A stretch of 8,043 nucleotides of DNA from Candidatus Cloacimonadota bacterium (GTDB lineage Bacteria; Cloacimonadota; Cloacimonadia; JGIOTU-2; B8-G9), in contig QMNM01000053.1 in assembly GCA_003647765.1 (NCBI GenBank), positions 1 to 8,043 on the forward strand, in the 5' to 3' direction. Of this stretch, positions 2,567 to 8,007 are shown piece after piece. Numbering within the stretch: position 1 is the stretch's first letter; the number at the start of each line of letters is the position of its first letter. The notes beneath the pieces are model-generated. The model saw only the letters and a list, made by a program, of their open reading frames with translations, was not told where the DNA came from and did not search any database. The translations under genes and the position numbers were made by a program.

Positions 2567-3457
2567 GTGCATAAAAATCCATCTAAATCAATACTATTCG
2601 TGAACTATTTTCAAGTCAAAATAATATTACTTTTTATAACAATACTATTCATAATTGGTTGTGGTAAAGTTGCACATAAAAAGAGTGATAAAATTATTGT
2701 TTTATCACCAGAAGTAGCAGAAATTGTCTATGAAATAGGTGCAAAAGACCAGGTATTAGCAGTTACTAATGAGTGTGATTATCCGCCAGAAATTGAGAAT
2801 ATTCCAAAAGTAGGAAGTTTTAGTTCTCCTGATATAGAAAAAATTATTGCACTCAGACCAAAATATATTCTTGGAACAAGTTTAGAACAAGCAATGGTTT
2901 TTGCGAATATGAAAAAACTTCACTTAAAATGCTACGAGTTCTATCCACAATCTATTGATTCTCTTTATAATGCTATAATGAAAATTGGCTCGTTGTTCAA
3001 TAAAGAAATGGAGAGTCAAAAGTTGGTGCATCAGTTGAGAATGGATATTTCATCTATAAATATACCAAATTATCAGCCGAGAGTATATATTGAAATATAT
3101 AATAGTCCGTTAATGACCGCTTCTTCAGAGTCCTTTGTCGGAGATATAATTAGTAAAGCAGGTGGCAAAAATATTTTTAATCAACTTCCAAGAGAATATT
3201 GTCGTATTACTGCTGAAGAAATAATTAGTCGTAATCCTCAAGTAATTATTATTACTTATCCAAACATTACAAAAAATGATGTGTCTAATCGTTTAGGTTG
3301 GGATAAAATTGATGCTGTAATAAATAAACAAATTTATACTGTTGAAGATATAAATCCTGATTTTATTGTTAGAGCAGGGCCAAGATTTGTTATTGGCGTA
3401 AAGCAATTAGCACAATTATTCAAGAATGCGGTAAAAGGAAAAGAAAGTGAAGGATAG
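2567..3457 (+). CDS. ABC transporter substrate-binding lipoprotein, BtuF/FecB type (cobalamin or iron chelate)
   Basis: This 296-residue protein starts at GTG 2567, with aaagga (2551-2556) ten bases upstream. The hydrophobic stretch VKIILLFITILFIIGC (17-32) ends in a lipobox (FIIGC), so C32 is probably lipidated and the protein anchored on the periplasmic side. From about 43 to 285 it is a Peripla_BP_2 domain. KIIVLSPEVAEIVYEIGAKD opens the N lobe, then come NECDYPPEIENIPKVGSF (68-85) and PDIEKIIALRPKYILG. The C lobe has AGGKNIF (198-204), ITAEEII (214-220) and R-AGPR-FVIG (269-277). The DYPPE and R.GPR motifs are typical of BtuF-like corrinoid binders; E91 and E217 align by context with the glutamates that dock BtuF to its permease. 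Iron-siderophore or haem binding remains possible. It lies upstream of its permease, and the stop codon sits in the repeat between them. No cobalamin riboswitch was recognised upstream. Confidence 0.85.
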   Translation: MHKNPSKSILFVNYFQVKIILLFITILFIIGCGKVAHKKSDKIIVLSPEVAEIVYEIGAKDQVLAVTNECDYPPEIENIPKVGSFSSPDIEKIIALRPKYILGTSLEQAMVFANMKKLHLKCYEFYPQSIDSLYNAIMKIGSLFNKEMESQKLVHQLRMDISSINIPNYQPRVYIEIYNSPLMTASSESFVGDIISKAGGKNIFNQLPREYCRITAEEIISRNPQVIIITYPNITKNDVSNRLGWDKIDAVINKQIYTVEDINPDFIVRAGPRFVIGVKQLAQLFKNAVKGKESEG

Positions 3458-3552
3458 AACACAGATTCCGCGGATAACTATGGATGAACACAGATAAAAC
3501 CTAAAAAATCAATCAGTGAAAATCAGTGTAATCAGTGTCATCTGTGTTCTAT
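3454..3552. repeat. 'aacacagat' dispersed repeat with 13-bp terminal inverted repeats
   Basis: Bases 3454-3466 (atagaacacagat) and 3540-3552 (atctgtgttctat) are a perfect 13-bp inverted repeat. The interior carries more AC/GT-rich relatives: gatgaacacagat on the left and aatcagtg three times on the right. It fills almost the whole gap between binding protein and permease and includes the binding protein's stop codon (3455-3457). It could fold into a long hairpin in the mRNA, which may protect or separate the two messages, although it has no T-run. Confidence 0.75.
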
Positions 3553-3563
3553 TAAGGGGGTTG

Positions 3564-4511
3564 ATGAGAAATAAAGGTATTTTTATTTGGTCTATTGTCA
3601 TATTAGTTGTAGTTTTTATCAGTTCATTGATGATTGGTAGTGTATCATTAAATCCATTTTCTTTATCAGAGACGGAGCAAAATATCCTGTGGAATGTGCG
3701 TTTTCCCAGAATAATTTTAGGATTGATAACTGGCATAGTATTAGGGACTGTTGGTGCAATTTTTCAAGGTATTTTGAATAATCCACTTGCTGACCCATAT
3801 TTATTAGGTATCTCTTCTGGTGCGGCATTAGGTAGCATTATTGCTCTTTTGCTAAGACAGGTTTTACTTATGCCAATATTTGGCTTTGTCGGTGCTTTAC
3901 TGACAATTATTTTAGTATGGAATTTGGCACATAAAAATAGATTTGTAAGTAAGACGCAGCTGATTTTATCAGGAATAATAATTAGTTTATTCTTCTCTGC
4001 TATAATTTCTCTATTGTTAAGTTTGTTTCATAGGGAATTGGCTCAGATAGTATCGGTTTTATTGGGCAATTTAGGATATATCTTTTCAAAAGAAAGTATC
4101 ATTTGGCTATGGATTATTTCAGGAATTTGTTTATTTGTAGTAATAATTCTAAATCTTTTTGCTGTGAGGATAAACATATTATCAACAGGTGATTATTCAG
4201 CAAAAGGATTAGGTATTGATGTGCAGAAAACAAGGAAGATACTATTTTTACTTAGTTCACTTATTACTGGAATTGTAGTTTCTTTCACAGGTATTATTGG
4301 TTTTGTAGGATTGATTATTCCACATACAGTTCGGCTTATTACTGGTGCTAATCATCAGCGAGTAATCCCATTATCAGGTATAATAGGTGGTGCTTTTTTG
4401 ATATTTTGCGATACTATTGCCCGTTCCATTTCAGTAGTAGAAATTCCAGTTGGAGTGATTACAGCCCTATTTGGAGCTCCTTTCTTTATCTATCTATTAA
4501 AGTCAAAATAA
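3564..4511 (+). CDS. ABC transporter permease, FecCD/BtuC family
   Basis: This 315-residue integral membrane protein should form the dimeric channel for the corrinoid or iron-chelate importer. ATG 3564 is chosen because aaggggg lies at 3554-3560 just before it and the protein then begins with the first membrane helix (IFIWSIVILVVVFISSLMIG). An in-frame GTG at 3516 would add 16 residues encoded by the intergenic repeat, so it is rejected. Family motifs are RFPR (46-49), FQGILNNPLADPYLLGISSG (67-86), GIIGFVGLIIPHTVR (243-257) and PVGVITALFGAPFFIYLL near the end. IGFVGLIIPH forms the usual coupling region facing the ATPase. The length is at the short end for the family but all landmark motifs are present. 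It follows the binding-protein gene in the same direction; the matching ATPase is not next to it but at 7231-8007. Confidence 0.92.
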   Translation: MRNKGIFIWSIVILVVVFISSLMIGSVSLNPFSLSETEQNILWNVRFPRIILGLITGIVLGTVGAIFQGILNNPLADPYLLGISSGAALGSIIALLLRQVLLMPIFGFVGALLTIILVWNLAHKNRFVSKTQLILSGIIISLFFSAIISLLLSLFHRELAQIVSVLLGNLGYIFSKESIIWLWIISGICLFVVIILNLFAVRINILSTGDYSAKGLGIDVQKTRKILFLLSSLITGIVVSFTGIIGFVGLIIPHTVRLITGANHQRVIPLSGIIGGAFLIFCDTIARSISVVEIPVGVITALFGAPFFIYLLKSK

Positions 4512-4605: not shown

Positions 4606-5238
4606 TTATACTGCTACTATTTTAATTTTATTTATCTCCGGAAAGCTATTTTTCAATTGATTTGTTATATGTTCAAATACACTGTACTTATATTCATCAT
4701 CAATAGTCATTTCTATCAGGACATCGTTATTCTCATCTAGTTTAACATATTTAACCATTCGCAGGGTGATAATATCTAAACCGACTTTTGGATAGATAAT
4801 TGACTTTAGTTTTTCCTCTATATTTTTTTTATTTAAATGTTCATCAAATACTTTACCTAAATATTTTTTTTCATATTGTTTAATTGCAGAGTGCAATGTA
4901 TCAACTGCTAATACAGAGCAATGCATCTTTATAGGTGGTAGTCCGCCAAGTTCATCAGCTGCTTGTTTCCATGTGATTTTCTTGGCTTGTTCCAATGTCC
5001 TGCCCTTTGCCAAGTCAGTTATTATTGACCCAGTAGCAATATTTGACGCACAACCGTACGACTGAAATTTTATGTCAGTTATCTTATGATTTTCTGGATT
5101 AACTTTTAGATATACAGTAACTATATCGCCACATGCGGCACTACCCTCAGTGGCTTCTACATCTGCATTTTCTAACTTGCCTAAATTATGTGGATGTTGA
5201 AAATGTTCAATCACTTTATCTGAATATTTTATTGTCAT
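4606..5238 (-). CDS. IscU/NifU-type Fe-S cluster scaffold with extra C-terminal MIP18/DUF59-like domain
   Basis: This 210-residue protein assembles Fe-S clusters from sulfur supplied by the desulfurase. ATG 5238 is preceded by AGGAGA. Residues 1-127 are a standard IscU domain: YSDKVIEHFQHPHNLG at the start and three ligand cysteines, C36 in AACGD, C63 in YGCASN and C107 in MHCSVLA. D38 follows C36 as in IscU. The IscS/HscA-type LPPIKMHC motif is present (100-107). Residues about 137-210 form a second alpha/beta domain running IEEKLKSIIYPKVGLDIITL, then DVLIEMT, then FPEINKIKIVAV. This aligns without gaps to the MIP18/PaaD/SufT (DUF59) pattern (E.L..V.DPE.G.nIvdLGlVy...MT). Its DPE has become YPK, and the usual cysteine after MT is absent. 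A degenerate NifU C-terminal (Nfu) domain is the alternative; both folds are related. It is the last gene of the rrf2-desulfurase-scaffold operon, 118 bases after the desulfurase. Confidence 0.87.
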   Translation of the reverse strand: MTIKYSDKVIEHFQHPHNLGKLENADVEATEGSAACGDIVTVYLKVNPENHKITDIKFQSYGCASNIATGSIITDLAKGRTLEQAKKITWKQAADELGGLPPIKMHCSVLAVDTLHSAIKQYEKKYLGKVFDEHLNKKNIEEKLKSIIYPKVGLDIITLRMVKYVKLDENNDVLIEMTIDDEYKYSVFEHITNQLKNSFPEINKIKIVAV

Positions 5239-5356: not shown

Positions 5357-6541
5357 TTACTCTTTCCACAATGGGCTTCTTCTTCGGAGTTCTCTAATTA
5401 TATCTGTTAAAACTAAAACTGTTTTGTCAATATCCTGTTCAGTTGTAAATCTGCTAAAAGTGAAGCGGATTGAACTATTTGCTTGCTCATGAGTATGTCC
5501 TGTTTGTAGCATCACATAGTTTGGTTCTAGACTTTGTGAGGAACATCCAGAACCGGTTGCCACAATAATATTTTGCATATCCAACATCATCATAATTGCT
5601 TCACCCTCTACAGCAGAAAAGGAAAAATTAACATTAGCTGGATTCCGCTTGTGTCCACGCGGTCCATTCAATTGAACTTTTGGAATATTATTCACTATAC
5701 TATATATTAATCTATTCTGCAATTTCCGATATTTGTTATATTGTTTGTCAAAATTTGAAAATGATATTTCTACAGCTTTTGCAAGTCCAATAATAGACGG
5801 AATGTTAATTCCACCAGGTTTTAGTTTATGAAATCGTGCTACACCATGTTGAATAGGTTTGATTTTTATCCCTTTTCTACAATATAAAAATCCAATTCCA
5901 GGAGGTCCATTAAACTTATGTCCAGATACGCTCATTAAATCCATTCCTAATTCATTTACATCCACAGGAATTTTAGTATAAGCTTCACAAGAATCAGTAA
6001 ATAAATATATTTTGTGGTTTGCACTATCTAAAATTTCCCGTATTTTTTTTACTTCCTGAATAGTTCCTAAAATATGATTTATATGAGTTATTGCAACCAA
6101 TGTTGTATCTTCTCTAATCTCATTTTTTAATTCTTCCAGATCAATAAAGCCATCTTTGTCAGCTGATATGTATGAGACATCAAAGCCAGATTCTTCTAAA
6201 TCAAGAAAAATTGCTAATACAGAAGGATGACTTACAATAGTAGTTATAAGATGTTTTCCATTATCTTGATTAGCATAAGCAGTTCCCTTAATACCTATGT
6301 TATTGGAGTCCGTGCCACCACTTGTAAATACAATTTCCTCTGGTTTAGCACCAATGGACTCAGCCACAATTTGAGTTGCTTTTTCAATATCCTCAGATAT
6401 CTCTGTGCCATAAGATGTAAAAGGGCCTGGATACCAATATTTTTGCAAAAAATATGGTTTCATCGCTTCTAATACAACAGGATCAGTCCGACTTGTTTTG
6501 CAATTGTCTAAATATATTTTATCGCTTTTTATCTGGTTCAT
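5357..6541 (-). CDS. Divergent NifS/IscS-type cysteine desulfurase
   Basis: This 394-residue PLP enzyme should convert cysteine to alanine and pass the sulfur as a persulfide to the scaffold protein. ATG 6541 follows AAAGGAG with good spacing. Catalytic features present: TSGGTDSNN for PLP phosphate binding (73-81), H105 in SHPSV stacking on PLP, D183 in FTDSCEA, the PLP lysine K209 in SVSGHKFNGPPGIGFLY, and active-site C333 in TGSGCSSQSLEPNYVM. SSIRFTFSRFTTEQDID closes the small domain. Several normally conserved motifs have drifted: YLDNAATT is YLDNCKTS (10-17), VNNE.GT is INHILGT (154-160), DAAQ is DSCE (183-186), and the GGGQE..LRSGTEN region is GVARFHKLKPGGIN (233-246). Group I NifS/IscS is favoured over SufS by the SLEP.YV loop. 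It is 45 bases downstream of the Rrf2 gene and upstream of its scaffold partner, so all three are probably one operon. Confidence 0.9.
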   Translation of the reverse strand: MNQIKSDKIYLDNCKTSRTDPVVLEAMKPYFLQKYWYPGPFTSYGTEISEDIEKATQIVAESIGAKPEEIVFTSGGTDSNNIGIKGTAYANQDNGKHLITTIVSHPSVLAIFLDLEESGFDVSYISADKDGFIDLEELKNEIREDTTLVAITHINHILGTIQEVKKIREILDSANHKIYLFTDSCEAYTKIPVDVNELGMDLMSVSGHKFNGPPGIGFLYCRKGIKIKPIQHGVARFHKLKPGGINIPSIIGLAKAVEISFSNFDKQYNKYRKLQNRLIYSIVNNIPKVQLNGPRGHKRNPANVNFSFSAVEGEAIMMMLDMQNIIVATGSGCSSQSLEPNYVMLQTGHTHEQANSSIRFTFSRFTTEQDIDKTVLVLTDIIRELRRRSPLWKE

Positions 6542-6586: not shown

Positions 6587-6991
6587 TCAAACTCCTTTAA
6601 TAATATCTTCAAGAGTAAAAAAATTAAGAAATTCAATTATATGGGCATTAAATTTAGTCCAGAAATTTTTGAAATCGCAATTATGAAAGAATTGACATGT
6701 CTCATCGCCTTGTAAGCAAGATATAATGTTCAAATTTCCTTCTGCTGCTTTCAAGATTTCAGCAATAGTAATTTGATTAGCTGGACTATACAGAATATAG
6801 CCACCATTTTTGCCTGATACTCCTTTCACAAGATTATGCTTTCGTAGTATACTGAAAATTTGTTCCAAAAATTTATATGGAATACATTGTCGTTCTGCTA
6901 TTTTACTCACAGAAATAGGAGTATTGGTTTTATCTTTGGCCAATTCATACATTGCTCGTAAGGCATATTCACATTTTTTGCTAATCTGCAT
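6587..6991 (-). CDS. Rrf2-family regulator, IscR-like
   Basis: This 134-residue DNA-binding protein probably senses Fe-S cluster supply. ATG 6991 (MQISKKCEYALRAMYELA) is the usual Rrf2 opening and has AAAGGA nine bases upstream. A longer frame from 7039 adds 16 residues that run through a promoter-like region and the palindrome, so it is not used. The winged helix covers about 1-70: ISVSKIAERQCIPYKFLEQI is the recognition helix region and GVSGKNGGYILYSP is the wing. Cysteines C92, C99 and C105 match the three cluster ligands of E. coli IscR (92, 98, 104) within one residue. The IscR fourth ligand His107 has no exact match (K108 here; H103 is nearby). Two further cysteines, C7 and C36, lie in the DNA-binding part. 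It is the first gene of the operon with desulfurase and scaffold, an iscR-iscS-iscU order, so it is probably autoregulatory. Confidence 0.9.
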   Translation of the reverse strand: MQISKKCEYALRAMYELAKDKTNTPISVSKIAERQCIPYKFLEQIFSILRKHNLVKGVSGKNGGYILYSPANQITIAEILKAAEGNLNIISCLQGDETCQFFHNCDFKNFWTKFNAHIIEFLNFFTLEDIIKGV

Positions 6992-7011
6992 TTTAAAAAT
7001 TCCTTTATAAA

Positions 7012-7039
7012 AACATACTAATTTAGTATGAATTGTCAA
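7012..7039 (-). promoter_or_regulatory. Possible promoter of the rrf2-desulfurase-scaffold operon
   Basis: Read on the minus strand, TTGACA (7039-7034) is a perfect -35 box. TATGTT (7017-7012) is a four-of-six -10 box after a 16-base spacer. The predicted start would lie close to the ribosome site at 7006-7001, giving a very short leader, which is a weakness. An alternative -10, TATAAA (7050-7045), lies further upstream but lacks a good -35. Confidence 0.4.
7014..7030. promoter_or_regulatory. Palindromic candidate operator for the Rrf2/IscR-like protein
   Basis: catacta-att-tagtatg is a perfect 7-3-7 inverted repeat 22 bases upstream of the rrf2 start codon. It lies between the candidate -35 and -10 boxes and overlaps the -10. 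Size, AT-rich centre and position are what one expects of an Rrf2-family autoregulatory site; binding itself is inferred. Confidence 0.5.
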
Positions 7040-7230: not shown

Positions 7231-8007
7231 ATGATAAAAGTACACAGTATCTCATATCAATATAATAAAAAGCCGGTGCTGAAAAATATATCTTTTAATA
7301 TTGAGAATGGGGATTTTGTAGGCATTATTGGGCCTAATGGTGCTGGAAAATCCACTTTACTAAAATGTATAAGTGGATTATTGCCTGGGAATGAAAATAA
7401 GATATTTATCAAAAATAATAGTATTGGTAAATGGAATAGAAAGGAGTTGGCAAAAAATATTGCAATAATTCAACAGGACTTTCACACTGAGTTTGATTTT
7501 TCTGTATATGAAATTGTAATTATGGGTCGTTTCCCTTATCTTGGATTTTTTGAAAGATATAGCAAAGAAGATGAAGAGTTTGTAGAGAATATATTCACAC
7601 AGTTAGATCTAGCTCAGTTTGCTAAAAGGAGATTTTCTCAGTTAAGTGGTGGTGAAAAACAGCGTGTTATCATTGCACAAGCATTAGCCCAGAATACAGA
7701 TATTTTGCTTTTAGATGAACCAGCCGTACACTTGGATATTCATCATCAGATTGAAACTTTTTCTTTGTTAAGAAATTTGAATGCGAAAAATAAAACCATT
7801 GTAGTGGTCTCACATAATATCAATTTATCTGCGGAATTTTGCTCTAAATTACTTATTTTAGATAAAGGAGAAATAGTCAATTTTGGCAAAACAGATGATG
7901 TTATGAAATCAGAGATTATCTCTAAAATATATAAAGTGTCTTCAAAAATAGTTAAAAATCCTTTTACTAATAAACCAAATATCCTTTATAAGTACAGAAC
8001 TAAATAA
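7231..8007 (+). CDS. ABC transporter ATP-binding protein, BtuD/FecE family
   Basis: This 258-residue cytoplasmic ATPase should power the importer formed with the binding protein (2567-3457) and permease (3564-4511). ATG 7231 is preceded by agagga (7221-7226). All catalytic motifs are intact: Walker A GPNGAGKST (34-42), Q-loop IIQQDF (79-84), signature LSGGEKQR (138-145), Walker B ILLLDEP (158-164), D-loop HLDIHHQ (167-173) and switch histidine H195 in VVVSHN. VIMGRFPYLGFFERYSKEDE between Q-loop and signature is the hallmark of the iron-chelate/haem/cobalamin import subfamily. The length is normal. It lies on the same strand as the other two subunits but is separated from them by the minus-strand Fe-S operon. 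No promoter could be assigned with confidence. No other permease is visible in the window; one beyond the right edge cannot be excluded. Confidence 0.92.
   Translation: MIKVHSISYQYNKKPVLKNISFNIENGDFVGIIGPNGAGKSTLLKCISGLLPGNENKIFIKNNSIGKWNRKELAKNIAIIQQDFHTEFDFSVYEIVIMGRFPYLGFFERYSKEDEEFVENIFTQLDLAQFAKRRFSQLSGGEKQRVIIAQALAQNTDILLLDEPAVHLDIHHQIETFSLLRNLNAKNKTIVVVSHNINLSAEFCSKLLILDKGEIVNFGKTDDVMKSEIISKIYKVSSKIVKNPFTNKPNILYKYRTK

Follow-up and report, generated by a model that had tools for sequence, protein, structure and literature searches.

An IscU-type scaffold fused to a DUF59/MIP18 domain without its reactive cysteine, conserved across Cloacimonadota

The gene at positions 4606 to 5238 (minus strand) of the window, by which we mean the whole stretch of 8,043 nucleotides analyzed here, encodes a protein of 210 residues with an ATG start, in which an IscU-type scaffold is followed by a C-terminal DUF59/MIP18 domain that has lost the reactive cysteine and the acidic motif of its family. 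We estimate at roughly one in two the probability that the fused protein is the main Fe-S scaffold and that its DUF59 tail is a tethered, noncatalytic docking or dimerization module. The initial annotation had located the gene correctly at 4606-5238 and had given no strand, which is minus. The IscU/NifU_N domain comprises residues 1-127 (4858..5238, minus strand) and the cysteine-less DUF59/FeS_assembly_P domain residues 137-208 (4615..4830, minus strand); a short linker of residues 128-136 (4831..4857, minus strand) separates both domain matches.

In the Pfam profile search, PF01592 covered residues 4-126 with an E-value of 1.7e-42 and 145 bits (cut-off 22). All five canonical IscU ligands, Cys36, Asp38, Cys63, His106, and Cys107, were found in the fused protein and are invariant across 94 aligned rows, and K104 of the LPPxK motif is also kept. 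The N-terminal 127 residues had been described as an ordinary IscU, and both the profile match and the five ligand residues agree with that description. Against the NCBIfam models of NifU, IscU, and NifU_clost, the fused protein scored under the equivalog cut-off in each case. By homology, the IscU domain would assemble an Fe-S cluster.

PF01883 matched the full protein with an E-value of 1.9e-4 and 22.0 bits, slightly under the cut-off of 23.5, and the tail scanned alone with 5.3e-5 and 23.9 bits, slightly over it; relatives reached E-values down to 2.4e-10. The same profile matched all 31 homologous tails (best E-value 1.1e-13) in a count that allowed E-values up to 1. Judged on these profiles, the match is weak in the window protein alone and secure at the level of the family. 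When the profile of the tails was compared with the PDB, nearly the whole domain was aligned with the DUF59 protein of Bacillus anthracis (3lno, 6e-10) and with TM0487 (1uwd, 7e-9). The AlphaFold models, which rest on 4 sequences (the window protein and those of L002, L003, and L004), were of moderate confidence (pLDDT 77-79; tail model 79), with the loop 150-159 below 50. The top Foldseek match of the tail model was again 3lno (E-value 1.1e-5, TM 0.75), for which VIA-align gave a Z of 9.8 and an rmsd of 3.0 over 79 aligned residues, and CIAO2B/FAM96 structures ranked near the top in VIA-align (Z 8.4-8.9; CIAO2B 6tbn, Z 8.8). Since the C-terminal domains of CDF transporters, which are unrelated, also score Z 8 against the tail model, it is the sequence evidence that carries the DUF59 assignment. 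PF01106 (Nfu) matched none of the 31 homologous tails, and there is no CxxC in the window protein. The initial annotation had left the choice between DUF59 and Nfu to profile searches and structure prediction, and both point to DUF59; its gap-free alignment from DPE to MT (P150 to T178) agrees with the HMM alignment to 3lno. These results support a DUF59/MIP18 domain for the tail, neither an Nfu domain nor an unrelated fold. The latter was ruled out for residues 130-210 by PF01883, the PDB profile matches, and the fold matches.

DUF59 proteins carry the motif DPE-X26-31-T-X2/3-C (PMC9045647). This motif, proper to SufT, is absent from the window tail, where the position of DPE reads YPK, the cysteine region reads DDEY, and there is no cysteine at all; the replacement of DPE by YPK and the loss of the cysteine, both proposed at the outset, are therefore borne out. 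In the HMM alignment the cysteine of 3lno falls beside Asp181 (4696..4698, minus strand), and in the 94-row alignment this position is Asp in 73 rows and His in 18 (91 of 94 together), a constraint that might reflect a function as a ligand or in catalysis. A total of 93 distinct ORFs were taken as fused, and one of these (L051) is a different IscU protein. None of the remaining 92 has a cysteine at the reactive site; 4 of them have some cysteine in the tail, always away from that site. Considering that the site cysteine is missing from every one of these ORFs and that DPE is missing outside Cloacimonadota as well, where the motif is mostly NPxxGLD, the loss of both elements is a stable property of the family and no local accident. 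A peculiarity of one genome was rejected on the same count, and the cysteine loss, whose conservation had been raised as a question, proved conserved in all relatives examined. One fusion of the archaeal group (L076:1276-2112, minus strand) has 5 cysteines in an insertion that lies in one of the loops of its DUF59 domain, off the canonical site.

Within Cloacimonadota, a match was found in 109 of 124 genomes and in 69 of the 70 of best quality. The initial annotation was in doubt about how common the architecture is: both domains are spanned in at least 106 of the 124 genomes, and the fusion also occurs, with E-values <1e-60, in 5 of 201 genomes of a Chloroflexota sample and in two archaeal phyla, namely, the phylum of a Methanofastidiosia MAG (7/115 genomes) and that of a Halarchaeoplasma MAG (Thermoplasmatota; 8/194). 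Mis-binning was rejected for the main cases from outside Cloacimonadota because these fusions are often on long contigs (1.8 Mb in G609, 148 kb in G263, and 164 kb in G347) and each phylum has more than one genome with the fusion; the contigs of L002 and L004 are short, and the occurrence out of the phylum does not rest on them alone. A rapid phylogeny of the IscU domain, with SH-aLRT support only, split the fused proteins from three standalone IscUs with a support of 96, and the fusions from outside Cloacimonadota formed one supported group. A single fusion event is likely, and it falls short of proof because the outgroup branches of this tree are long. There is one copy per genome, and one IscU in the window's own genome; the single exception is a genome with a second IscU bearing an unrelated tail. 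This homolog (L051:1570-2196, in G085) has its own nifS adjacent and a C-terminal CxC...CxxC extension that looks like a BFD-type [2Fe-2S] domain.

The minus-strand order in the window is rrf2, nifS, and the fused gene. The cysteine desulfurase gene nifS (5357..6541, minus strand) matched TIGR03402 with 1.8e-113, under its equivalog cut-off, and the SGCSSQS loop of its product contains a cysteine. For the Rrf2/IscR-like regulator (6587..6991, minus strand; PF02082, 9.1e-34), the ATG at 6991 is more likely the start than the TTG at 7039, and the PF02082 domain begins at residue 19 of the TTG ORF (6587-7039). The C-terminus of this regulator, SCLQGDETCQFFHNC, shows a pattern of three cysteines which may resemble those of cluster-binding regulators; their spacing differs slightly from that of E. 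coli IscR. The order of the three genes recurs in most relatives whose locus extends far enough, and nifS adjoins the fused gene in nearly every locus, other phyla included. Conserved neighbors on the plus strand are the periplasmic binding protein of a heme/B12/siderophore-type ABC importer (2567..3457; PF01497, 9.6e-29), a FecCD/BtuC-type permease (3516..4511; PF01032, 2.6e-83), and the importer ATPase, divergent from rrf2 (7231..8007; PF00005, 2.1e-35), which reached 250.5 bits against the heme ABC ATPase model (cut-off 261). Importer genes of the FecCD/BtuCD type bracket the operon in many families, over much of Cloacimonadota, which suggests that metal or cofactor uptake is coupled to Fe-S assembly. 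Elsewhere in the window, positions 1-393 at its edge encode a type IX-like secretion sorting tail (Por_Secre_tail), and 525-1256 is an ORF with a signal-peptide-like start and no Pfam match.

SufBD was not found in 121 of the 124 Cloacimonadota genomes, and the A-type carrier family was over the cut-off in just 2. As the fusion is, in addition, near-universal there, it is likely that the phylum relies on the fused protein as its main de novo scaffold. A separate Nfu is encoded in 103 of the 124 genomes and was not found in the window's own assembly, which is 88.8% complete.

Other DUF59-type genes were observed in these genomes. A second, standalone family (L056:1058-1348, minus strand, and L113-L120) is likewise cysteine-less, with HPAINxSL...LPALNIPI or similar motifs, and in the window's genome the gene adjoins a Nitro_FeMo-Co (NifX-like) gene. 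In G116, one DUF59 protein retains both the DPE and the CP motif and is preceded by a hydrophobic N-terminal segment (L083:1420-1881, minus strand); cysteine-bearing DUF59 is thus not wholly absent from Cloacimonadota. The DNA of L056 (G000:C81) and L086 (G117:C108) is 93-98.6% identical in genomes of two different families, whose fused proteins are only 59-71% identical; this would be explained either by a recent transfer or by a contig of foreign origin in at least one of the two bins. G117:C108 also has a SufB/D match.

In the mechanism that we propose, NifS, encoded next door, would supply sulfur to the IscU domain, and the cluster would be built on Cys36/Asp38/Cys63/(His106)Cys107. The tail would retain the SufT/MIP18 fold without the reactive cysteine or the acidic motif and, being permanently attached, would recruit partners to the cluster, be it another scaffold, NifS, or client apoproteins, so that it would do in cis what free SufT achieves via cysteine-dependent binding. 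The docking role and its partners are what we infer for the tail. An adaptor role of DUF59 has precedent, since SufT of Mtb binds SufS, SufU, itself, and client proteins, and it binds neither Fe nor cluster (PMC9045647). In that protein the cysteine is required both for self-association and for SufU/SufS binding (PMC9045647), so dimerization and the contacts with SufU/SufS are precisely what a cysteine-less domain might lack. The covalent tether could make the cysteine dispensable for adaptor work.

Taking into account the absence of the motif residues of DUF59, the tail might be regarded as a degenerate remnant without function. We consider this very improbable, given that its full length is kept across Cloacimonadota and in three other phyla and that it has conserved positions of its own (L144, G153, D155, V162, K163, I175, D181, E190, and E193). 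The median dN/dS of the tail was 0.083, with 0.051 for IscU (Nei-Gojobori, 15 close pairs), which shows that strong purifying selection acts on the tail; a pseudogene or decaying tail was rejected on this conservation and dN/dS. The chance that we are dealing with an Nfu (NifU C-terminal) domain, degraded and devoid of CxxC, is smaller still, practically negligible. The Nfu and DUF59 folds are alike and, further down the list of fold matches, CnfU (2z51) reached a Z of 8.0, but DUF59 proteins are the best matches by sequence and by fold, and the 31 tails that match PF01883 include none with PF01106. The separate Nfu of most relatives also argues against this identity, which was rejected.

A tail that serves purely the dimerization or stability of the scaffold, with no client contacts, is unlikely, although less so than the other alternatives. 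DUF59 proteins do self-associate, Mtb SufT among them (PMC9045647), the domain-swapped Fam96a dimer 3ux3 was among the fold matches, and Nfu, which could pass clusters on, is separately encoded in the 103 genomes mentioned; however, the self-association of Mtb SufT also needs its cysteine (PMC9045647). We give distinctly less credit to a metal-handling domain in which Asp or His would replace the cysteine and which would bind Fe(II) or Zn and either feed iron to the IscU site or gate that site. Both residues found beside the lost cysteine are possible metal ligands, and the operon lies within a conserved cluster of iron/heme/B12-type importer genes. Nevertheless, DPE is lost, the tail showed no further cluster of conserved ligands, and Mtb SufT binds no iron, its cysteine notwithstanding (PMC9045647). 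The conserved Asp may also be a helix cap, as the helix predicted in the AlphaFold model begins at residue 181. We retain the docking or dimerization module on the main scaffold as the preferred reading.

The function of the DUF59 domain is still debated, and its reactive cysteine is regarded as central. With a selected and conserved DUF59 that is cysteine-less and permanently joined to a scaffold, docking can be studied apart from the chemistry of the cysteine, in a clean test system. The fusion also hints that Fe-S assembly is compact in this large phylum, most of which is uncultured. It is conceivable, albeit rather tentatively, that the fused protein represents an uncharacterized class of scaffold, the sole de novo one in the phylum and shared with some Chloroflexota and archaea. 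In that case the core job of DUF59 in Fe-S assembly would be that of an adaptor or docking domain, which needs no cysteine chemistry once it is tethered to the scaffold.

In the literature searched, no dedicated description of an IscU-DUF59 fusion was found, just one sentence on a class S5 and the mention of a fusion of an Nfu N-terminus with SufT. Mashruwala et al. (2016) reported S5 as a U-type scaffold domain before SufT in 5 of 761 homologs (PMC4982691). The two domain types and their order, with the U-type scaffold N-terminal to DUF59, are the same as here, and the fusion architecture is therefore not new in outline. Every SufT homolog in that study, limited to sufBC genomes, kept the cysteine (PMC4982691). 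By comparison with this description of S5, the family described here is distinct in having no such cysteine and in occurring in genomes almost none of which have SufBD, so the cysteine-less form found across Cloacimonadota would be new. The initial annotation had set the architecture apart from the usual arrangements of NifU and SufT; the U-type scaffold/DUF59 combination as such was already reported as S5 (PMC4982691). As far as the searched literature goes, what is new is the cysteine-less form, its near-universality in a phylum without SUF, its occurrence in Chloroflexota and archaea as well, and the conserved operon.

With SufT/DUF59 proteins (TM0487, 3lno, and Mtb Rv1466) and CIA2/MIP18 the tail shares the fold, the profile family, and the link to Fe-S assembly; unlike them, it has neither DPE nor TxxC(P) and is attached to the scaffold instead of free. 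The minimal ISC system, MIS, consists of a cysteine desulfurase and an IscU-type scaffold with no carrier (PMC12192291). The present case resembles it in the two-gene unit of nifS and a U-type scaffold, found in organisms that are presumably anaerobic, and in the near absence of SufBD and A-type carriers. The scaffold described here differs in its additional DUF59 tail, and most Cloacimonadota genomes (103/124) encode a separate Nfu. Finally, NifU of the Azotobacter type and IscU have in common with the fused protein the IscU-type N-terminal scaffold beside NifS, but in place of the ferredoxin and Nfu domains of the Azotobacter-type NifU the fused protein carries the DUF59 tail.
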